A stretch of 64,000 nucleotides of DNA from Nocardioides donggukensis (GTDB taxonomy: Bacteria; Actinomycetota; Actinomycetes; Propionibacteriales; Nocardioidaceae). The stretch is taken from contig NZ_JACYXZ010000005.1 in assembly GCF_014842875.1 (NCBI RefSeq), positions 124,001-188,000 on the forward strand. Direction: 5' to 3'. Positions 13,272-22,128 of the stretch are shown one piece after another. Every line of letters begins with the position of its first letter. The stretch's first letter is position 1. Position numbers and translations under genes: made by a program. A model generated the notes under the pieces. That model did not search any database, had not been told where the DNA came from, and saw only the letters and a program-made list of their open reading frames with translations.

Positions 13272-14237
13272 TCACGGCGCCTTATGGTCGAGTCGATCGG
13301 GCAGCCCGAAGGTGGCGAAGAGCTCCGGGTCGAAGAACGCCGCGACCCGGGCCACCCGGTCCCCGTCGAGCTCGAGCACCTGGAGCTGGAAGGGGAGGAA
13401 GCCGCCGTCGGACCCGGGCTGGCGCATGTAGAGGCCGAACGCCGGCTGGCCGTTGGCGGTGGTGGCCACCATCGGCATGTCGTGGACGCCGCCCGGGCAC
13501 TGGACGTCGATCAGGCGGCCGATGTTCTCGGCGCCGCGGTACCACCCCGTGAACGGCGGCATCTCCCAGACGGCCTCGGAGGTGAGGAGGCCGACGATCT
13601 CCGCGATGTCCTTGCGCCAGAACGCGTCGACGTACCTCTCCAGGAGCTGGCGCTGGCCCGTGCTCAGCCGATCCGCGGGGGAGCCCTCGGTGAGGTCGGC
13701 ACGGGCCATCTGTGCGTGCGCGCGCTGGAGGGCCGAGTTGACCGCCGCCGGGGTCGTGTCCAACGTCTCCGCGACCTCCCTGGCCGACCACCGGAGGACG
13801 TCGCGCAGGATCAGCACGGCGCGCTGCCGGGCCGGCAGGTGCTGCAGGGCGGCGATGAACGCCAGCCGGATCGTGTCCCGTTCGGCGACGAGGACCGCGG
13901 CGTCCGGGACCGGCTCGAGCCAGGGCACCTCGGCGTCCCACTCCAGCTCGTCGCCGGCCGAGCTGTCGGCGGTGCCGAGTCCGGTGGGCAGCGGGCGGCG
14001 GGCCCGGCCCTCGAGGTTCGTCAGGCAGACGTTGGTGGCGATCCGGTGCAGCCAGGTGCGCACCGAGGACCGGCCCTCGAAGCCGTGGAAGGCGCGCCAG
14101 GCGCGCAGGTAGGTCTCCTGGACCAGGTCCTCGGCCTCGTGGAAGGAGCCGGTCATGCGGTAGCAGTGCGCCAGCAGCTCCCGACGGTAGCCATGGGTCG
14201 CCTGCTCGAAGTCGGTCTCCTGCGCGGTGGTCGTCAT
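13272..14237 (-). CDS. ECF sigma factor with C-terminal SnoaL-like domain
   Basis: RNA polymerase sigma factor of 321 residues, longer than a minimal ECF sigma. Region 2 (YRRELLAHCYRMTGSFHEAE, then DLVQETYLRAWRAF) and region 4 (LPARQRAVLILRDVLRWSA, AVNSALQRAHAQ) are both clear. The C-terminal 120 residues (YVDAFWRKDIAEIVGLL, MPPFTGWYRGAENI) form a SnoaL/NTF2-like domain, as in the TIGR02960 and SigJ-type groups where this tail modulates activity without an anti-sigma factor. The ATG at 14237 is chosen because the long upstream extension of the frame is Arg/Ala/Pro filler. No anti-sigma gene is adjacent. Its regulon is unknown. Confidence 0.85.
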   Translation of the reverse strand: MTTTAQETDFEQATHGYRRELLAHCYRMTGSFHEAEDLVQETYLRAWRAFHGFEGRSSVRTWLHRIATNVCLTNLEGRARRPLPTGLGTADSSAGDELEWDAEVPWLEPVPDAAVLVAERDTIRLAFIAALQHLPARQRAVLILRDVLRWSAREVAETLDTTPAAVNSALQRAHAQMARADLTEGSPADRLSTGQRQLLERYVDAFWRKDIAEIVGLLTSEAVWEMPPFTGWYRGAENIGRLIDVQCPGGVHDMPMVATTANGQPAFGLYMRQPGSDGGFLPFQLQVLELDGDRVARVAAFFDPELFATFGLPDRLDHKAP

Positions 14238-14317
14238 GACGACATTCTGTCGCTCTTCCACGCCCTGTCGAGGGTCCCGTCGTGCCTGGTCGGGCTGGTC
14301 GGGCCTGGCCGGCACAC

Positions 14318-15889
14318 CTAGTCGGCGTGGACGAGGGCGAGGGCGCGCTCGGCCAGCGGACGCGCCAGCTCCCGGTCGGCCGACACCAGACCGACCCGGG
14401 TGCGCCGGTCGAGCAGGTCGTCCACGTCGAGGGCCCCCTCGTGGGTGACCCCGAACACCAGGTCGGCCAGGGTCACCGGCAGGTGCGGGGCGGCCGGTGC
14501 GAGCAGCTCCGCCTCCGACAGCCCGGTGACCGCCCGGGCGTCGTCGAGCACGTACGCCGCCTCGGTGCCGTAGCGACGCACCAGGTGCGACGGCTGCTCG
14601 AGCCGGGCCAGCTCGGCCCGGGGAGCGGCCCCCAGGAGGGGCAGGTCGCGGGTCCGGCACCGCCCGGCGCCCAGGCCGGTGGCGTCCACGGCGTCCTCGG
14701 CCATCCGGCGGTACGTCGTGAGCTTGCCGCCGACGACCGTCACCACCGGGCAGGGGCCGGTGCCGCTGGTCAGCACCGCGTGCTGACGGGAGAGGTCGGC
14801 GGTACCCCGACCCGGTCGGCCGCCGGGTCGGGTGCCGGGTCGGTCGTCTGGCCGGGCGTCCGGCCGGGCGACGTCGAGCAGCGGGCGCAGTCCGGCGTAG
14901 GCGCCGACCACGTCGCTGCGCCGCAGCGGCCGGTCGAACGCGGCGGCCACCACGTCCAGCAGGAAGCCGATCTCGGTCTCGGTGGGCTCCGGGACGTCGG
15001 GCACCGGCCCCGGGGCCGGCTCGTCGGTGAGCCCCACGAAGACCCGCCCGTCGGACTGCGGCAGCAGGAACACGAACCGGTTGGTCTCCCCGGGGACCGG
15101 CACCGTGACCGCCGCGGCCAGGCCCGGCAGCGTCCCGGCCCCCAGCACCAGGTGCGTCCCGCGGCTCGGCCGGAGCCGGACGTCGACCAGGTCGCCGGCC
15201 CAGACGCCGGTGGCGTTGACCACGGCCCGTGCGGTGACCGCGCGGGTCTCGCCGGTCAGCTCGTCGCGGAGGAGGGCGCCGGTGCCGGTGGTCTCGAGCA
15301 CCCGGACCCGGGTCCGGACGCTGGCGCCCTCGGCGACGGCCGTCCGGGCCAGGCAGGTCACGAGCCGGGCGTCGTCCTCGAGCTGTCCGTCCCAGGACAG
15401 CAGGCCGCCACGCAGTCCGGCGTCACGCAGCCCGGGAGCGAGGGTCAGCACCTCGGCCCGCGAGATCCGGCGCGGCCGCGGCAGGGTGTCCACGTCGGTC
15501 CCCGCGACCCGGCGCAGCAGGTCCCCGGCGGCGAACCCGGCCCGGGCGATGCCGGCCTGGGGTCGGCTCACGCTGGACATCAGCGGCAGGAGCATCGGCA
15601 TCGCCCGGGTCAGGTGCGGGGCGGTGGTCTCCATGAGGATCCCTCGCTCGACCGCGCTCTCCCGGGCCACTCCGACCTGCATCCGGGCGAGGTACCGCAG
15701 ACCGCCGTGCACCAGCTTGGAGGACCAGCGGGAGGTGCCGAAGGCGACGTCGTGGGCGTCGACGGCCACGACGTGCAGTCCGCGGGCGGCAGCGTCGAGC
15801 GCGACACCGGCGCCGGTGACGCCCAGCCCCACGACGAGGACGTCGGTGTGGTCCGGCAGCCCGGCCAGGCCGTGCCCCAGGCGGGTCAC
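14318..15889 (-). CDS. glpD: glycerol-3-phosphate dehydrogenase/oxidase
   Basis: FAD-dependent enzyme of 523 residues converting glycerol 3-phosphate to dihydroxyacetone phosphate, normally at the membrane. It has the FAD-binding VLVVGLGVTGAGVALDA at the N-terminus and the GlpD hallmark GTSRWSSKLVHGGLRYL near residue 50. VVNATGVWAGD and VVGGKLTTYRRMAEDAVD follow downstream. An odd, low-complexity insertion of repeated Arg-Pro-Asp/Gly residues lies near residues 335-360. The GTG start overlaps the TetR stop by four bases, so the two are co-translated. The product DHAP could feed the ether-lipid-type enzyme encoded divergently at 16563. Confidence 0.88.
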   Translation of the reverse strand: MTRLGHGLAGLPDHTDVLVVGLGVTGAGVALDAAARGLHVVAVDAHDVAFGTSRWSSKLVHGGLRYLARMQVGVARESAVERGILMETTAPHLTRAMPMLLPLMSSVSRPQAGIARAGFAAGDLLRRVAGTDVDTLPRPRRISRAEVLTLAPGLRDAGLRGGLLSWDGQLEDDARLVTCLARTAVAEGASVRTRVRVLETTGTGALLRDELTGETRAVTARAVVNATGVWAGDLVDVRLRPSRGTHLVLGAGTLPGLAAAVTVPVPGETNRFVFLLPQSDGRVFVGLTDEPAPGPVPDVPEPTETEIGFLLDVVAAAFDRPLRRSDVVGAYAGLRPLLDVARPDARPDDRPGTRPGGRPGRGTADLSRQHAVLTSGTGPCPVVTVVGGKLTTYRRMAEDAVDATGLGAGRCRTRDLPLLGAAPRAELARLEQPSHLVRRYGTEAAYVLDDARAVTGLSEAELLAPAAPHLPVTLADLVFGVTHEGALDVDDLLDRRTRVGLVSADRELARPLAERALALVHAD

Positions 15890-16545
15890 GGCGCCAGCGC
15901 CCGGGTCAGCAGCCGGCCCAGCTCGGCGTCGAGGTCGGCCAGGCTGACGTCGTCGTCGACCATCGTGTGGGCCGAGATGACGAACCCGTGGGCGGCGAGC
16001 AGCACTGACCGGGCGAGGGCGGCGGGGTCGCCCGCACGGATCCCGCCCTCCGCCTGGCCGGCCCGGATCAGGGGCTCGGCGAGGGCGAGGATCGCCTCCT
16101 GGGAGCGACCCCGGCGGGAGAGCAGGTAGGGCAGGATCAGCTCGGGGTCGAGCTCGACGATCCGCACGAACAGCTCGTTGGCCCGCAGCGCCTGCACCGT
16201 CCCGACGACGGCCTCGGCGAGCGCCGCGGCCGGCCCGCCCGGCTCGCTGGTCCCGGTGGCCCCGCTGGTCCCGGTGACGCCCGCGCCCCCGGCGACGGCC
16301 GAGCCGTCCGGCGAGGGGTCCGGCGGCAGCGCGGCGGCGACCACTCCGTGCCACTCACGGGTCATCAGGTCGCCCAGCAGCTGGGGCATGTCCGACCAGG
16401 TGCGGTAGATCGTCATCCGGCTCACGCCGGCCCGCCGGGCGACCTCGGTGAGCGTGGTCCGGCGCCAGCCGACGTCGAGGATGCACTCGCGGGCCGCGTC
16501 CAGGTAGCCGTCCCGTGGACTCTGCTTGTGACGAAGTGACGACAT
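15886..16545 (-). CDS. TetR/AcrR-family transcriptional regulator
   Basis: Repressor-type protein of 219 residues. The N-terminal TetR helix-turn-helix (ILDVGWRRTTLTEVARRAGV, SRMTIYRTWSDMPQLL) occupies residues 22-65. The rest is the helical ligand-binding domain with a Gly/Thr/Ala-rich loop near residue 80. It is the first gene of the TetR-glpD unit and diverges from the alkyl-DHAP-synthase-like gene, with only 17 bases between the two start codons. A 23-base dyad spans both starts, making autoregulation and co-regulation of the divergent genes likely. The ligand is unknown; an acyl-CoA or lipid metabolite would fit the context. Confidence 0.85.
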   Translation of the reverse strand: MSSLRHKQSPRDGYLDAARECILDVGWRRTTLTEVARRAGVSRMTIYRTWSDMPQLLGDLMTREWHGVVAAALPPDPSPDGSAVAGGAGVTGTSGATGTSEPGGPAAALAEAVVGTVQALRANELFVRIVELDPELILPYLLSRRGRSQEAILALAEPLIRAGQAEGGIRAGDPAALARSVLLAAHGFVISAHTMVDDDVSLADLDAELGRLLTRALAP

Positions 16546-16565
16546 GTGTCACACTGTAACACATG
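16543..16565. promoter_or_regulatory. dyad spanning both divergent start codons (TetR operator candidate)
   Basis: CATGTGT (16543-16549) and ACACATG (16559-16565) form a perfect inverted repeat with a 9-base centre. The outer CAT and ATG triplets are the start codons of the two divergent genes. Binding of the TetR protein here would block both. Confidence 0.6.
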
Positions 16566-18140
16566 ACCACCGAGATGCACCCCACCCGCTGGGGCGACCC
16601 GGCCCAGGCCGGACCGCTGCCCTCCGCCACCAGGGAGCTCGTCGAGCTCGCGTTCGGCGTCCACGACACGACGGTCGCCGAGGGTGCCGCCCTCCCGGCG
16701 CCCGGCCTGGCCGAGTCGGTCCTGGCCGACCTGCGCGCCGTCCTCGGAGACGAGCACGTGCGCACCGACGACGAGTCCCGTCGGCTGCGCACCCGCGGCA
16801 AGTCGACGCCGGACCTGCTCCGGGCCCGGGCCGGTGACCTCACCGACGCCCCCGACGCGGTCGTGCGTCCCGGTGACCACGACGACGTCGTCGCCCTCCT
16901 GGAGGTCGCGGTCCGGCACCACGTCGCCGTCGTCCCGTTCGGCGGCGGCACCTCGGTGACCGGCGGCCTCGTGGCCCGCCGCGAGGGGTACGCCGGCGTG
17001 GTCAGCCTCGACCTCGGGCGACTCACCGCCGTGCGCGAGATCGACGAGGTCTCGATGACCGCGGTGCTCGAGCCCGGGCTGCGCGGGCCGGAGGCCGAGG
17101 CCCGGCTGGCCGAGCACCGGCTGACGCTGGGCCACTACCCGCAGTCGTTTGAGTTCGCGACGATCGGCGGCTTCGCCGCGACCCGGTCCAGCGGGCAGTC
17201 GAGTGCCGGCTACGGGCGCTTCGACGCCCTGGTGGTGGGCCTCACCGTCGCCACGCCGCAGGGGACCTGGGAGCTCGGCACCTCGCCCGCCAACGCGGCC
17301 GGACCGGACCTGCGCCAGCTGGTGCTGGGCTCGGAGGGCGCGTTCGGCGTGATCACCGCGGTCCGGGTCCGGGTCCGCCGGCTCCCCGCCGAGCGGGTCT
17401 ACGAGGGCTGGCAGTTCGGCTCGTTCGCCGCCGGGACGGAGGCGATCCGCACGCTGGCCCAGGCCGGAGCCCGGTCCGGGCTGATGCCCACCGTGCTCCG
17501 GCTCTCGGACGAGAGCGAGACCGCCCTCAACCTCGCCAGCCAGTCCGACGTCGGGGGTGCCGCCGCGGACGGCGGGTGCCTGATGATCGTCGGCCACGAG
17601 GGTGCCGACGTCGCGGACCGTCGGGCGGCGGTGACGGCCGCGCTCGAGGCGGCCGGCGGCACCCCGCTGGGAGAGGAGCGCGGGGCCGCCTGGGAGCAGG
17701 GCCGGTTCCACGCGCCGTACCTGCGGGACTCGATGCTCGACGTCGGGGTGACCGTGGAGACCCTCGAGACGGCGACGTTCTGGTCGCGGGTGCCGCAGGT
17801 CTACGCCGCGGTGCGGCAGGCGTTGGCCGGCACGCTGGGGGAGAGGGCGATCGTGCTCTGCCACGTTTCACACGTCTACGAGACCGGCTGCTCGCTCTAC
17901 TTCACCGTCGCCGTCCCGGGCGGGGACGACCCGGTCGAGCAGTGGCGGTCCGCCAAGTCGGCCGCGACCGAGGCGATGGTGGCGGCCGGCGCGACGATCA
18001 CCCACCACCACGCCGTCGGCACCGACCACCGGCCCTGGCTGGAGCGGGAGATCGGCCCGCTCGGCGTCCGGGTGCTGCGCGCGGTCAAGGACGAGCTGGA
18101 CCCGACCGGCGTGCTCAACCCGGGGGTGCTGGTCCCGTGA
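16563..18140 (+). CDS. FAD-binding oxidase, alkyldihydroxyacetonephosphate synthase-like
   Basis: Flavoprotein of 525 residues in the VAO/PCMH family, closest in motif order to alkyl-DHAP synthase, which swaps the acyl group of acyl-DHAP for a fatty alcohol in ether-lipid synthesis. It starts MTTEMHPTRWGD. The FAD PP-loop is PFGGGTSVTGG near residue 128. AGPS-type landmarks are PQSFEFATIGG (residues 191-201), the CLMIVGHEG strand and the His-rich active-site HHHAVG near 483. No acyl-DHAP acyltransferase is adjacent, so a true ether-lipid role is unproven; a D-lactate or glycolate-type oxidase is the alternative. It overlaps the kinase gene by four bases. Confidence 0.75.
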   Translation: MTTEMHPTRWGDPAQAGPLPSATRELVELAFGVHDTTVAEGAALPAPGLAESVLADLRAVLGDEHVRTDDESRRLRTRGKSTPDLLRARAGDLTDAPDAVVRPGDHDDVVALLEVAVRHHVAVVPFGGGTSVTGGLVARREGYAGVVSLDLGRLTAVREIDEVSMTAVLEPGLRGPEAEARLAEHRLTLGHYPQSFEFATIGGFAATRSSGQSSAGYGRFDALVVGLTVATPQGTWELGTSPANAAGPDLRQLVLGSEGAFGVITAVRVRVRRLPAERVYEGWQFGSFAAGTEAIRTLAQAGARSGLMPTVLRLSDESETALNLASQSDVGGAAADGGCLMIVGHEGADVADRRAAVTAALEAAGGTPLGEERGAAWEQGRFHAPYLRDSMLDVGVTVETLETATFWSRVPQVYAAVRQALAGTLGERAIVLCHVSHVYETGCSLYFTVAVPGGDDPVEQWRSAKSAATEAMVAAGATITHHHAVGTDHRPWLEREIGPLGVRVLRAVKDELDPTGVLNPGVLVP

Positions 18141-19033
18141 CCCGCGACTACTCGTTCCTGGTCAACCCGCTCTCCGGCGGGGGCGCCGCCCCGGGGGCGG
18201 TGGTCCCGGTCGCGCGACGGCTGCGGGAGGCCGGCGCCGCCGTCGAGGTCACCTACTCGCCCGGCCCGCGGGCCACGCTCGACCTGGTCCGGGCGGCGGT
18301 CGGGCGCGGCGAGGTCGTGGTCTCGGTCGGTGGCGACGGGATGCTGTCCTCGGTCGCGGGCGAGGTGGCCCGCCTCGGCGGGACCCTCGGCATCGTGCCG
18401 GCCGGTCGCGGCAACGACTTCGCCCGGATGCTGGGCCTGCCCGACGACCCGGACGAGGTGGCCCGACTGCTCCTGGAGGCGCCTCCGCGCCCGGTCGACC
18501 TGCTCGCGGTGCGGGGGCCGGACGGTGCCGATCGGGTCGTGGCCGGGTCGGTGTACGCCGGCGTCGACGCCCGCGCCAGCCGGCTGGTCGACCGGGCCCG
18601 CTGGCTGCCCCGGCGCCTGCAGTACCCGTACGCCGCCGTGCGGTCCCTGGCGACCTACCGGCCGGCCCATCTCGAGGTCGCGGTGGACGGGACCGTGGGC
18701 ACGTTCCGGGCCGCGACGGTCGTGGTCGCCAACTCCGGCTACTACGGCTCGGGCATGCACATCGCCCCGGGCGCCTCCCTCGACGACGGGGTCCTGGACG
18801 TGGTGGTCATCGAGGCCGCGGGCCGGCTGGACCTGATCCGCTCGCTGCCCACGGTCTACGACGGCGGGCACGTCGCCCTGCCCGGGGTGCACGTCCTGCG
18901 CGGCCGCCTGGTGGAGGTGCGCTCGCTGGCCGGCCCGGTGCCGGTGGGTGGCGACGGCGAGTCGCTGGGCGAGTTGCGCGCCGGTCCGCTCACCGCCCGG
19001 GTGCTGCCTGAGGCACTGGCGGTGCTGGCCTGA
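18137..19033 (+). CDS. diacylglycerol/lipid kinase (DagK/YegS family)
   Basis: Lipid kinase of 298 residues that would phosphorylate diacylglycerol or a related lipid alcohol with ATP. The N-terminal NPLSGGG, the catalytic-domain VSVGGDGML near residue 67 and VPAGRGNDFAR near 92 match the family (the usual form is PLGTGND). The C-terminal half has NSGYYGSGMHIAPGAS and the late VGGDGE motif. The GTG start overlaps the upstream flavoprotein stop (GTGA), so the two enzymes are co-translated. The pairing with glpD and the AGPS-like gene suggests a glycerolipid or ether-lipid unit. Confidence 0.85.
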   Translation: MTRDYSFLVNPLSGGGAAPGAVVPVARRLREAGAAVEVTYSPGPRATLDLVRAAVGRGEVVVSVGGDGMLSSVAGEVARLGGTLGIVPAGRGNDFARMLGLPDDPDEVARLLLEAPPRPVDLLAVRGPDGADRVVAGSVYAGVDARASRLVDRARWLPRRLQYPYAAVRSLATYRPAHLEVAVDGTVGTFRAATVVVANSGYYGSGMHIAPGASLDDGVLDVVVIEAAGRLDLIRSLPTVYDGGHVALPGVHVLRGRLVEVRSLAGPVPVGGDGESLGELRAGPLTARVLPEALAVLA

Positions 19034-19167: not shown

Positions 19168-20280
19168 ATGGCCATGCCTGACGCAACACAGAACAAGAAC
19201 CTTGAAGGCGGTGGGGTGCGCGCACGAGTCCAGCGATTCGGCGGCTACCTGGCCGGCATGATCATGCCCAACATCGGCGCCTTCATCGCCTGGGGTCTGA
19301 TCACCGCGCTGTTCATCCCCACCGGGTGGATCCCCAACGAGAAGATGGCCGAGCTGGTCGGCCCGATGATCACGTTCCTGCTCCCGCTGCTGATCGGCTA
19401 CACCGGTGGCCGGATGGTGCACGGGCAGCGCGGTGCGGTGATCGGCGCGATCGCGACGATGGGTGTCATCGTCGGCTCCGAGGTGCCGATGTTCCTCGGC
19501 GCGATGCTGATGGGCCCGCTCGCGGCGTACCTCCTGAAGCTCCTCGACGAAGCCATCCAGGACAAGGTCCCCAGCGGCTTCGAGATGCTGATCGACAACT
19601 TCTCGCTCGGCATCCTCGGCGGCGGCCTGGCCCTGCTCGGGCGCCAGGTCATCGGCCCGGTCGTCCAGGAGATCGTCAACTGGCTCGGCAGTGGCGTCGA
19701 CACCCTGGTCGAGAACAACGTGCTCCCGCTCGCGTCGATCTTCGTCGAGCCGGCGAAGGTGCTGTTCCTCAACAACGCGATCAACCAGGGCGTGCTGACC
19801 CCGCTGGGTGCGGCCGACGTGACCGACGCCGGCCAGTCGATCCTGTTCATGGTGGAGACCAACCCCGGCCCCGGCCTGGGCATCCTGCTCGCCTACCTGT
19901 TCTTCGGTCCGCGGGTCATGCGCCCGACCGTCCCCGGCGCGCTGATCATCCACTTCCTCGGCGGCATCCACGAGATCTACTTCCCCTACGTGCTGATGAA
20001 GCCGCGCCTGATCCTGGCCGCCATCGCCGGCGGCATGTCCGGCCTGCTCACCGCCACCATCCTCAACGCCGGCCTGGTCTCGGTGCCCTCGCCCGGCAGC
20101 ATCTTCGCCTACCTCGCGGTCACGCCCAAGGGCGGCTACTTCGCGGTGCTGGCGGCGATCACGGTCGCGACGCTGGTCTCCTTCGCGGTGGCCTCCGCCC
20201 TCCTGGGCTTCGGTCGCGGCGAGAAGGAGGAGACCGACAAGCCGGTCCGCCCGGAGGACAATGTCATCGTCGGCACCTGA
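19168..20280 (+). CDS. PTS mannitol-type transporter, EIIC membrane component
   Basis: Membrane permease of 370 residues that imports a hexitol coupled to phosphorylation by EIIB. Two stretches are diagnostic of the MtlA EIIC domain: NIGAFIAWGLITALFIPTGW near residue 35 and GGIHEIYFPYVLMKP near 270 (the substrate-binding GIHE loop). NNAINQGVLTPLG is also present. The protein stops after the membrane domain with a short charged tail; EIIB is a separate gene. GGAG about 9 bases before the ATG at 19168 is a good ribosome site. It is the first gene of a four-gene unit. No general PTS genes (EI, HPr) are in the window. Confidence 0.9.
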   Translation: MAMPDATQNKNLEGGGVRARVQRFGGYLAGMIMPNIGAFIAWGLITALFIPTGWIPNEKMAELVGPMITFLLPLLIGYTGGRMVHGQRGAVIGAIATMGVIVGSEVPMFLGAMLMGPLAAYLLKLLDEAIQDKVPSGFEMLIDNFSLGILGGGLALLGRQVIGPVVQEIVNWLGSGVDTLVENNVLPLASIFVEPAKVLFLNNAINQGVLTPLGAADVTDAGQSILFMVETNPGPGLGILLAYLFFGPRVMRPTVPGALIIHFLGGIHEIYFPYVLMKPRLILAAIAGGMSGLLTATILNAGLVSVPSPGSIFAYLAVTPKGGYFAVLAAITVATLVSFAVASALLGFGRGEKEETDKPVRPEDNVIVGT

Positions 20281-20311
20281 CCGACGTCACCGCAACCGAA
20301 GGAGAAGCGCG

Positions 20312-20620
20312 ATGCCCACGATCAACGGCTCGGACGTACGCAAGGTGGTGATCGCCTGTGACGCCGGCATGGGAAGCAGCGTCATGGTCGCCACCACGAT
20401 GAAGAAGAAGCTCAAGAAGTACGACGTCGACGTGGTGCACACGCCTGTCAACGAGATCCCCGGCGACAGCCAGGTGGTGCTGTGCCACTCGGGCCTCGCG
20501 GCCCGGGCGGCCGGCATCGCGCCGAACGCCGTGATCGTCCCGTTCCAGGTGTTCATGGGCGACCCGGCCTTCGCCAAGGTCGAGAGCGCCATCAAGCAGG
20601 GCGAGACCCTTGAGTCCTGA
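20312..20620 (+). CDS. PTS mannitol-type EIIB component
   Basis: Cytoplasmic phosphocarrier of 102 residues that passes phosphate from EIIA to the incoming sugar alcohol. The P-loop-like active site VVIACDAGMGSSVM contains the phosphorylated Cys16 and is characteristic of EIIB-Mtl. The ATG at 20312 is chosen over an upstream in-frame ATG at 20261 because AAGGAG lies 7 bases before it and the longer N-terminus would overlap EIIC. The C-terminus overlaps the EIIA start region by 11 bases. Confidence 0.9.
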   Translation: MPTINGSDVRKVVIACDAGMGSSVMVATTMKKKLKKYDVDVVHTPVNEIPGDSQVVLCHSGLAARAAGIAPNAVIVPFQVFMGDPAFAKVESAIKQGETLES

Positions 20621-21065
20621 GGTGGCCGACGTCCTGTCGCGGGACGCGGTCCGCCTCGGCCTCACGGCCACCGACCAGGCGGACGCGCTCCGTCAGTGCG
20701 GTGCGGTGCTCGTGGAGATCGGTGCGGCGTCACAGGGGTACGCCGACGCGATCCTCGAGCGTGAGGCCGGCGTCTCGACGTACATGGGCGAGGGGGTGGC
20801 GATCCCGCACGGCACCGATGCCAGCCGGGAGCACATCAGCCGCCCCGCGATCGCGGTCCTGCAGTTCCCGGACGGTGTGGACTGGAAGGGCAAGGACTGC
20901 CGGCTGTGCATCGCGATCGCGTCGCGATCGGACGAGCACATCGGCATCCTGCAGTCGCTGGCCATGGTGCTCAGCGACAAGGCCAAGGCGCAGCAGCTGC
21001 GCGAGACCGATGACATCGACACCGTGCTGGCGCTGCTTGCGCCCACGGACGACGAGGAGGACTGA
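20610..21065 (+). CDS. PTS mannitol/fructose-type EIIA component
   Basis: Phosphocarrier of about 151 residues. The family's active-site His lies in GVAIPHGTD (His67), and AIAVLQFPDGVDW and GILQSLAMVLSD follow as in EIIA-Mtl/Fru. The predicted start is a TTG at 20610 overlapping the EIIB stop. The in-frame GTG at 20622 is an alternative that removes four residues and the overlap. It accepts phosphate from HPr, which is not encoded here. Confidence 0.88.
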   Translation: MSPEVADVLSRDAVRLGLTATDQADALRQCGAVLVEIGAASQGYADAILEREAGVSTYMGEGVAIPHGTDASREHISRPAIAVLQFPDGVDWKGKDCRLCIAIASRSDEHIGILQSLAMVLSDKAKAQQLRETDDIDTVLALLAPTDDEED

Positions 21066-21069
21066 TCCC

Positions 21070-22128
21070 GTGAAGGCACTGCGCTTCTACGCCCCCGAGG
21101 ACCTGCGTGTGGAGGACGTGCCCGAGCCCGAGTGCGGCCCGGACGAGGTCAAGCTCAGGGTGCGCAACTGCTCCACCTGCGGCACCGACGTGAAGATCTT
21201 CTACAACGGCCACCAGAACCTCTCCCCGCCACGCACCATCGGCCACGAGATCGCCGGTGAGGTGGTCGAGGTCGGGGCCGACGTGCAGGCGACGTACGGC
21301 GGCGACTGGCAGGTCGGAGACCGGGCCCAGGTCATCGCGGCGGTGCCGTGCGGGGACTGCCACGAGTGCCGCAAGGGCTGGATGGCGGTCTGCCAGAACC
21401 AGACCTCCGTCGGCTACCAGTACGACGGCGGCTTCGCGGAGTACATGATCGTGCCCCGCGAGGTGCTCAAGGTGGACGGGCTGAACCGGATCCCCGAGAA
21501 CGTCGGCTACGACGAGGCGTCGGCCGCCGAGCCGTTCGCCTGTGCGATCAACGCGCAGGAGCTGATGGGCATCGAGGAGGGCGACACCGTCGTCGTCTTC
21601 GGCGCCGGGCCGATCGGCTGCATGCACATCCGCATCGCGCGGGGCGTGCACAAGGTCGGGCCGGTCTACCTGGTCGACGTCAACGCGGAGCGGTTGCAGA
21701 TGTCCGCTGACGCGGTGTCGCCGGACGAGACCATCAACGGCGCCGAGGTGGATGTCGTGGAGAAGGTGATGGAGCTGACCGGAGGTCGCGGCGCCGACGT
21801 CATCATCACCGCGACCGCCGCCAACGTCACCCAGGAGCAGGCGATCGCGATGGCGGCGCGCAACGGCCGGATCTCGTTCTTCGGCGGGCTGCCCAAGAAC
21901 GACCCGACGATCACGTGCGACTCCAACGTCGTGCACTACCGCCAGCTGCACATCCACGGCGCGAACGGCTCGGCGCCGGAGCACAACAAGCGGGCGCTGG
22001 AGTACATCTCCAGCGGCCAGGTGCCGGTCAAGGACCTGATCACCGAGCGGATCCCGCTCGACCGGGTCCTCGACGCCTTCGACATCGTCAAGAAGGGCGA
22101 GGCGATCAAGGTGACCGTCGAGCCCTGA
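21070..22128 (+). CDS. zinc-dependent MDR alcohol/polyol dehydrogenase
   Basis: Enzyme of 352 residues in the medium-chain dehydrogenase family. The catalytic zinc site is CSTCGTD near residues 35-41 with GHEIAGEV (His-Glu) near 58. The structural zinc lobe is CGDCHECRKGWMAVC near 95-109. The NAD-binding motif is VFGAGPIGCMH near 178. The position at the end of a mannitol PTS operon suggests it oxidises the imported phosphorylated polyol. GatD (galactitol-1-phosphate dehydrogenase) is a known MDR precedent, whereas classical MtlD belongs to an unrelated family. A free-polyol dehydrogenase (sorbitol type) is the alternative. The GTG start lies 4 bases after the EIIA stop. Confidence 0.82.
   Translation: MKALRFYAPEDLRVEDVPEPECGPDEVKLRVRNCSTCGTDVKIFYNGHQNLSPPRTIGHEIAGEVVEVGADVQATYGGDWQVGDRAQVIAAVPCGDCHECRKGWMAVCQNQTSVGYQYDGGFAEYMIVPREVLKVDGLNRIPENVGYDEASAAEPFACAINAQELMGIEEGDTVVVFGAGPIGCMHIRIARGVHKVGPVYLVDVNAERLQMSADAVSPDETINGAEVDVVEKVMELTGGRGADVIITATAANVTQEQAIAMAARNGRISFFGGLPKNDPTITCDSNVVHYRQLHIHGANGSAPEHNKRALEYISSGQVPVKDLITERIPLDRVLDAFDIVKKGEAIKVTVEP

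Follow-up and report, generated by a model that had tools for sequence, protein, structure and literature searches.

The locus at positions 14318-19033 of the 64-kb stretch of Nocardioides donggukensis DNA analysed here (the window) raises the question of what a flavoenzyme resembling alkyl-dihydroxyacetone-phosphate (alkyl-DHAP) synthase, also called alkylglycerone phosphate synthase (AGPS), does in the company of a glycerol-3-phosphate (G3P) dehydrogenase and a lipid kinase: whether it builds ether lipids or takes them apart. The genes form two short divergent pairs, glpD-tetR leftward and AGPS-like flavoenzyme-lipid kinase rightward, in a host genome of 3.4 Mb that, judged by the AGPS-like protein, has its nearest named relatives among Nocardioides species. 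The answer that we favour, tentatively and with a probability of roughly 45%, is that this cassette is a substrate-inducible salvage or catabolic route for glycerol ethers, with 1-O-alkylglycerol lipids as the likeliest substrates. Its components are:

14318-15889, minus strand: glpD-like gene for a flavin adenine dinucleotide (FAD)-dependent glycerol-3-phosphate dehydrogenase of 523 amino acids (PF01266 DAO, 163.6 bits, and PF16901 DAO_C)
15886-16545, minus strand: gene for a TetR-family regulator of 219 amino acids (PF00440, 42.6 bits)
16543-16565, no strand: putative palindromic operator between both start codons, with the core TGTGTCACACTGTAACACA at 16545-16563
16563-18140, plus strand: gene for the AGPS-like flavoenzyme of 525 amino acids, VAO/FAD_binding_4 type (PF01565 and PF02913)
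18137-19033, plus strand: gene for a diacylglycerol-kinase (DAGK)-family lipid kinase of 298 amino acids (PF00781, 81.4 bits, and PF19279, 197.9 bits)

These domain matches confirm all four assignments of the earlier note on this DNA, in which glpD and a TetR gene were read leftward and an alkyl-DHAP-synthase-like flavoprotein and a lipid kinase rightward. An open reading frame (ORF) listed at 14318-16354 crosses tetR in another frame, and the true glpD ends at 15889. The GTG start of glpD (15889-15887) overlaps the tetR stop, the GTG of the kinase gene (18137-18139) overlaps the TGA of the flavoenzyme gene (18138-18140), and the overlap reads GTGA in both pairs, which makes the co-translation that had been proposed for each pair plausible.

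In the proposed route, the DAGK-family kinase would phosphorylate an alkylglycerol (or alkyl-acylglycerol) to 1-O-alkyl-sn-glycerol-3-phosphate, whose C2 hydroxyl the GlpD-like enzyme would oxidise to give 1-O-alkyl-DHAP, with the electrons passing to quinone. By our own reasoning, this second step would also supply the C2 carbonyl that AGPS chemistry requires, which is one of the reasons to favour cleavage. In the AGPS mechanism, as set out in the text available from PMC3509576, a C1 carbanion is stabilised by the carbonyl and the reaction runs through a flavin-N5 adduct in ping-pong fashion. The AGPS-like flavoenzyme would accordingly be expected to deprotonate C1, form the flavin-N5 adduct and expel the fatty alcohol, after which water or a carboxylate would replace the alcohol, the products being DHAP (or acyl-DHAP) and the alcohol. 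TetR, sitting on the single shared operator, would repress both arms until a lipid ligand arrives. The substrates, the direction and the TetR ligand are those that we infer.

The flavoenzyme resembles AGPS (EC 2.5.1.26) in its domains, fold and active-site residues, and its first description as alkyl-DHAP-synthase-like was right on family, fold and residues alike. Its best matches in the PDB were Dictyostelium AGPS (2uuu, E 2.1e-78) and guinea-pig AGPS (4bby, E 1.3e-65); the first match outside AGPS was glycolate oxidase (E 5.3e-33), with D-lactate enzymes ranking after it. Residues H300, R419, R515, Y578 and H615-617, which we take to be the active-site set of guinea-pig AGPS, correspond in the alignment to H191, R313, R388, Y446 and H481-483 of the window protein, and the position of Y578 is independently fixed by the PDB entry of the Y578F variant (4bca). 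These residues were invariant in 19/19 aligned sequences (window included) and, with the exception of R388, across 34 sequences of wider diversity. Two GlcD-type controls are without H300, R419 and the first two histidines of the HHH triad; the tyrosine does not discriminate, since both controls may carry it (by multiple alignment, not by pairwise alignment). Among 18 plasmid-borne relatives in mixed genetic contexts, two of them cassette members, the tyrosine was present in 18, R419 in 18, HHH in 17, H300 in 13 and R515 in 10. Relatives in other contexts therefore largely keep the AGPS residues, and the residue set is no proof of synthesis.

The predicted model of the flavoenzyme (pLDDT 85.4) has the AGPS fold including its N-terminal extension: it superposed on mammalian AGPS with Z of 39.7-40.2, starting at model residue 6-8, and on Dictyostelium AGPS with Z of 35.8-36.0, both AGPS alignments beginning within residues 6-11, and on mouse LDHD with Z of 35.9-36.3, aligned from residue 49 only. 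Fold was considered as evidence of identity and rejected, as mouse LDHD scores as high as Dictyostelium AGPS and falls 4 Z units short of the mammalian enzyme; the fold of the model alone does not fix function.

The window flavoenzyme differs from AGPS in lying outside the tested eukaryotic clade and in being accompanied by GlpD and a kinase, not by an acyltransferase and a reductase. Its position was examined in a midpoint-rooted tree of 54 of the 106 rows of a first tree, after removal of long-branch or oddly composed rows (including the GlpD-linked L113, L131, L166 and L175), two GlcD outgroups and near-duplicates. The AGPS rows of Dictyostelium and guinea pig formed one clade (support 98/91) with those of two bacterial loci, L149 and L154, to the exclusion of the cassette flavoenzyme, the guinea-pig branch being long and the sequences of both eukaryotic rows limited to the aligned pieces. 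The cassette rows formed a clade of 16 (100/98) inside a neighbouring group of 30 (97/92), and the sampled mycobacterial loci L158, L162 and L163 fell within the 16. Taken in the strict sense of one clade with the characterised enzymes, AGPS thus does not include the window flavoenzyme. The bacterial AGPS genes of the eukaryotic clade are in operons with an acyltransferase and a short-chain dehydrogenase/reductase (SDR) (L149:4775-8126 and L154:5220-8491; an uncultured bacterium and a Candidatus Avipropionibacterium metagenome-assembled genome, MAG), and these operons are candidate loci of bacterial ether-lipid synthesis. Cleavage is favoured here because the cassette flavoenzyme lies outside the clade whose bacterial members have such neighbours.

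The locus is a Nocardioidaceae copy of an actinobacterial cassette and is not unique, its arrangement being already known from mycobacteria. In the loci fetched for AGPS-like relatives with at least 50% identity, a divergent glpD was adjacent in 19/19 loci of the same family, tetR in 18/19 and the kinase gene in 10/19 (the count is without genomes G001, G008 and G031, which also have such an AGPS-like gene, and one of the nine loci without the kinase ends at the AGPS-like gene). All three genes were found in each of the nine loci from other families of the same class (9/9 for glpD, tetR and kinase), and elsewhere in the phylum glpD was seen in 3/11 loci, tetR in 2/11 and the kinase in 0/11. 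GlpD accordingly stood beside the AGPS-like gene in 28/28 close loci (19 from the family and 9 from the class). The divergent glpD-tetR/AGPS-like-DAGK order is common to the window, the named relatives L090 and L091 and mycobacterial loci, and was found by sequence in Mycobacterium/Mycolicibacterium loci L158, L161-L163, L170, L172 and L182. Named carriers include Tsukamurella tyrosinosolvens and Streptomyces fungicidicus, both on plasmids, and various Nocardia, Mycobacterium and Nocardioides genomes.

A wider sample of 80 named loci from several phyla, the best 80 of 552 confirmed matches to a GlpD/FGGY-linked first row and therefore biased (some of them end at contig ends), had GlpD no more than 4 kb from the AGPS-like gene in 50 loci. 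These 50 had a DAGK gene in 26 cases, an FGGY kinase gene in 16, neither in eight and both in none. The constant partner in close relatives is an oxidising enzyme, GlpD, and the kinase is swapped between unrelated families, which favours cleavage; the substrate class common to DAGK and FGGY kinases would be a glycerol-type alcohol. Cleavage is further favoured because some FGGY versions adjoin importers, namely a sugar-type ATP-binding cassette (ABC) importer in L114, a major facilitator superfamily (MFS) transporter with a zinc alcohol dehydrogenase in L112 and an MFS transporter in L104; an MFS gene also adjoins the FGGY version of a Novosphingobium that is a close relative of L104, and in L117 one lies several kb away from the FGGY module. 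A broader proposal, that kinase, GlpD and AGPS-like enzyme make up a widespread bacterial ether-cleavage pathway, in which DAGK or FGGY is used according to whether the glyceryl ether is a lipid or soluble, seems to us possible, though less likely than not.

As regards the individual partners, the best PDB match of the glpD product was E. coli GlpD (2qcu, E 1.2e-44). R54, Y55, H233, R317, R332 and K354 of the E. coli protein, which we take to be G3P-site residues, are all conserved in the window GlpD, and the pocket residues checked for an alkyl-chain site were those of the G3P enzyme. Its score with the NCBIfam GlpD equivalog, 224 bits, is below the cut-off of 360 and was obtained on a frame with 41 surplus codons at its 5' end. 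The kinase passes with PF00781 and PF19279 and reaches 93.7 bits with TIGR00147 ('YegS/Rv2252/BmrU'), under the cut-off of 118.65. Its motif is GGDG followed by M instead of T, without NE; cassette kinases, the mycobacterial ones too, mostly diverge from GGDGTxNE (T is kept in L165 and E in L090), and GGDGT is kept in L113, L135, L146 and L147, four DAGKs that do not belong to the actinobacterial cassette clade. Such a departure, read from the motif, says nothing firm on the substrate.

The divergent start codons are 17 nt apart, and the gap is filled by a 23-nt imperfect palindrome with 7-nt arms and a 9-nt middle. At up to two mismatches, its core has a single site in the whole genome and the reversed control pattern none, and shuffling gave a chance expectation of about 0.02 matches per window at up to three mismatches. 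Allowing for variable bases, the core was found in 10/184 loci, of which three belong to the host genome and the remaining seven to other cassettes (L005, L007, L009, L145, L152, L159 and L168; unnamed and named ones among them could partly be one species); the exact core is absent from most cassette loci. A wider TetR regulon found no support in further genome sites at up to two mismatches. We infer from this pattern that TetR is a local repressor with one target region, to which its binding is putative. A single operator in the genome means that no distant synthesis gene is under the same control, which again favours cleavage.

The closest described counterpart is found in Mycobacterium tuberculosis/BCG, where a gene table in PMC4564863 has Rv2249c (glpD1), Rv2250c (regulator), Rv2251 (flavoprotein) and Rv2252 (diacylglycerol kinase) in adjacent rows. 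These are the same four products in the same order, and the 'c' suffixes indicate the same divergent orientation; the likeness rests on this published table and on the other mycobacterial loci, not on H37Rv protein sequences. The available part of PMC4482099 reports a motif of lesser significance for Rv2250c, the regulator in mycobacteria. Of the four, only Rv2252 has an assigned biochemical activity in the texts at hand, and the portions of the open-licence literature searched assign no joint function to the four-gene set and hold no prior proposal of the cleavage direction for such a cassette.

A second counterpart is the GliR system of Pseudomonas aeruginosa, described in PMC8151288, of which the accessible sections are drawn on here. 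PA3026 (FAD oxidoreductase), PA3025 (GlpD homologue), PA3024 (FGGY kinase) and PA3023 (YegS lipid kinase) are like the window cassette in combining a FAD oxidoreductase, a GlpD homologue and a lipid kinase beside a divergent regulator, and unlike it in having an AraC activator instead of TetR, an extra FGGY kinase and structural genes that all run in one direction; the likeness of PA3026 to AGPS is by that paper's description, not by sequence comparison here. GliR overproduction strongly raises PA3026-PA3023 together with the phospholipase C PA3464 (PMC8151288), and this co-activation is another reason to favour cleavage. Clustered orthologues of all GliR-system proteins were reported in 4/1748 genomes, with PA3027 and PA3026-PA3024 similarly arranged in eight more strains (PMC8151288); our counts suggest that the pairing of GlpD with an AGPS-like enzyme is commoner than in that survey once other kinases and regulators are allowed.

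In Myxococcus xanthus, an AGPS homologue also sits in a lipid operon, MXAN_1676-1674 (AGPS, a fusion of fatty-acyl reductase (FAR) and GNPAT, and an NAD-dependent enzyme), which, unlike the window locus, carries its own putative makers of fatty alcohol and acyl-DHAP and has neither GlpD nor a kinase among its three genes; according to the text available from PMC9131029, its disruption lowers ether lipids only slightly. The neighbours tested at other myxobacterial loci (1-2 each at L119, L123, L128, L135 and L136) were neither FAR nor acyltransferase. Alkylglycerol monooxygenase (AGMO) resembles the proposed pathway in that it breaks 1-O-alkyl glycerol ethers and differs from it in being a membrane enzyme that uses tetrahydrobiopterin; it is presumably unrelated in sequence to the window system.

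A number of points weigh against cleavage. The kinase is not obligatory, being seen in just 10 of the 19 family loci, and 30 of the 80 named loci showed no GlpD at a distance of up to 4 kb (12 with a kinase, 18 with neither). Importers stand in just 3/8 FGGY loci, with few neighbours tested per locus; there was none among the neighbour genes tested in L108, L109, L129 and L144. The AGPS residues of the flavoenzyme are those of a synthetic enzyme, and the direction is therefore unreadable from them. With its G3P-site residues kept, GlpD may have plain G3P as its sole substrate, and use of alkylglycerol by the host bacteria is assumed. A P. aeruginosa strain deleted for PA3026-PA3024 showed no growth phenotype in the data available from PMC8151288, either with glycerol or across BIOLOG plates, and the text at hand does not name alkylglycerols among the substrates tested. 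In the accessible part of PMC3229680, which cites Owens et al. 2006, Rv2252 is reported to be a DAG kinase that supplies phospholipid and phosphatidylinositol mannoside (PIM) synthesis. The host genome itself also contains one strong fatty-acyl-reductase candidate elsewhere, a FAR+SDR protein (PF07993, 155.2 bits), which, together with 11 PF01553 acyltransferase matches, would make synthesis possible. A FAR homologue was found in 17/23 cassette genomes and in 11/38 others (61 family genomes, Fisher p 0.0012), the association weakening to p 0.012 in the 41 genomes at least 95% complete and to p 0.13 in the 31 of these with a size of 3.5 Mb or more. A cassette genome was defined in this test by an AGPS-like match of E < about 1e-146, plus one fragmented copy (G001); G001, G008 and G031 were counted without inspection of glpD, and the FAR family model also matches in all 14 control genomes.

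These last observations bear on the main competing explanation, ether-lipid synthesis, in which GlpD would supply DHAP, the AGPS-like enzyme would swap acyl for alkyl and the kinase would return alkyl-acylglycerol to phospholipids; in a variant, GlpD would oxidise 1-acyl-G3P to acyl-DHAP and so substitute for the missing acyltransferase. We regard it as the less likely direction, even with AGPS residues and fold, the enzymes encoded elsewhere in the genome, the co-occurrence of FAR with the cassette and the suggestion of the GliR authors, in the text available, that alkylglycerone phosphate is synthesised from glycerol (PMC8151288), all of which speak for it. The flavoenzyme is not part of the eukaryotic AGPS clade, in which both bacterial genes belong to acyltransferase-AGPS-SDR operons, and the 64-kb window has zero PF01553 matches, so that no acyltransferase partner stands alongside the flavoenzyme, an arrangement that is not required in eukaryotes. 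The importers beside some related modules and the single operator point away from synthesis as well. Five cassette genomes that are 99-100% complete (G013 and, from a single genus, G021, G038, G049 and G057) show no more than a weak FAR domain, with best PF07993 scores of 37.8-62 bits, and cleavage is favoured because they lack a strong fatty-acyl reductase; G059, the sixth cassette genome that is FAR-negative, is 77% complete and was outside the PF07993 comparison. The earlier note had leaned towards synthesis while listing a DHAP acyltransferase and a fatty alcohol source as missing pieces: both are absent from the locus and neither is clearly absent from the genome, and synthesis is possible yet less supported, given the position outside the AGPS clade, the window without an acyltransferase and the oxidising partner GlpD. 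The note's fallback, an alternative lipid-recycling role, came closer to the salvage route preferred here.

Turnover of ester phospholipids is, in our view, improbable. The kinase would convert diacylglycerol to phosphatidic acid (a PIM precursor), GlpD would recover G3P, and the flavoenzyme would act on some other DHAP- or glycerol-linked compound, one that is no lipid ether. The role described for Rv2252, the overlap of the DAGK and flavoenzyme genes and the conserved G3P residues of GlpD would all suit this scheme, which nonetheless leaves the frequent partnership of AGPS-type enzyme and GlpD with differing kinases unexplained.

That the flavoprotein oxidises a 2-hydroxy acid in the manner of GlcD or D-lactate dehydrogenase, the outcome named earlier as refuting an ether-lipid role, with GlpD nearby by accident, is very improbable, for despite common FAD_binding_4/FAD-oxidase_C domains, an NCBIfam GlcD match below the curated cut-off (117.7 vs 567.9 bits) and a superposition of mouse LDHD as good as that of Dictyostelium AGPS (Z about 36 each), its AGPS matches are far stronger, both GlcD-type controls are without the counterparts of His191, Arg313 and the first two HHH histidines, and GlpD adjacency in close relatives is too constant for chance placement.

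If ether cleavage is indeed the function, AGPS chemistry would be run as an ether-cleaving step through the flavin-N5 adduct, and Mycobacterium and its relatives would gain an ether cleavage independent of oxygen, unlike that of AGMO. Rv2249c-Rv2252 would thereby receive a joint job, the breakdown of ether lipids, which are present in animal membranes. A bacterial or metagenomic 'AGPS homologue' would then not need to mean ether-lipid synthesis, which screens such as PMC11868695, in the part available, infer from such homologues. If synthesis were true instead, alkyl ether lipids would be predicted in Nocardioides, Nocardia and mycobacteria.

On either side of the cassette lie genes of other types. 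Adjoining glpD, window positions 13272-14240 encode a TIGR02960 (SigX5)-type extracytoplasmic function (ECF) sigma factor that has a weak SnoaL-like match at its C-terminus; it had no match beside the other cassettes compared. Positions 19168-22128, 3' of the cassette, hold a mannitol-type phosphotransferase system (PTS) IIC gene (370 amino acids); behind it come three features named by eye, a short PTS-like ORF, one resembling EIIA and a dehydrogenase of the zinc type. A functional tie to the downstream mannitol PTS or to the upstream ECF sigma/LuxR-type genes was considered and rejected, as none was matched in 19 wider loci of other genomes. Among the cassette loci within these 19, several flanking genes are common only to L058 and L072, which are of one genus.

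AGPS-like genes also occur in settings other than the cassette. Closely related pairs of an AGPS-like and a glutathione S-transferase gene are found on plasmids of Sphingopyxis macrogoltabida and Xanthobacter dioxanivorans (L086:5902-8250 and L087:5911-8266), flanked by coenzyme A ligase genes and, in L087, also by aldehyde dehydrogenase genes. A role in the breakdown of polyethylene glycol (PEG) or dioxane ethers is possible and was not used as proof for the salvage route; a literature search on the link of AGPS-like genes to PEG/dioxane degraders gave nothing decisive. In another group (L098:4968-11365, L100:4986-11386, L118, L122 and L125-L127), the AGPS-like gene adjoins that of a xylulokinase-like FGGY kinase and belongs, where sampled, to a separate clade. 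The plasmid loci L098 and L100 also have a LacI regulator and a sugar ABC importer, with no GlpD found nearby, and the enzymes of this group perhaps cleave a ketose-type ether. Finally, an AGPS-like gene lies beside that of a cysteine-rich (CCG)/4Fe-4S protein in L116:60-2818 and L121:7001-9600, from a Lokiarchaeota MAG and a Wallbacteria MAG.

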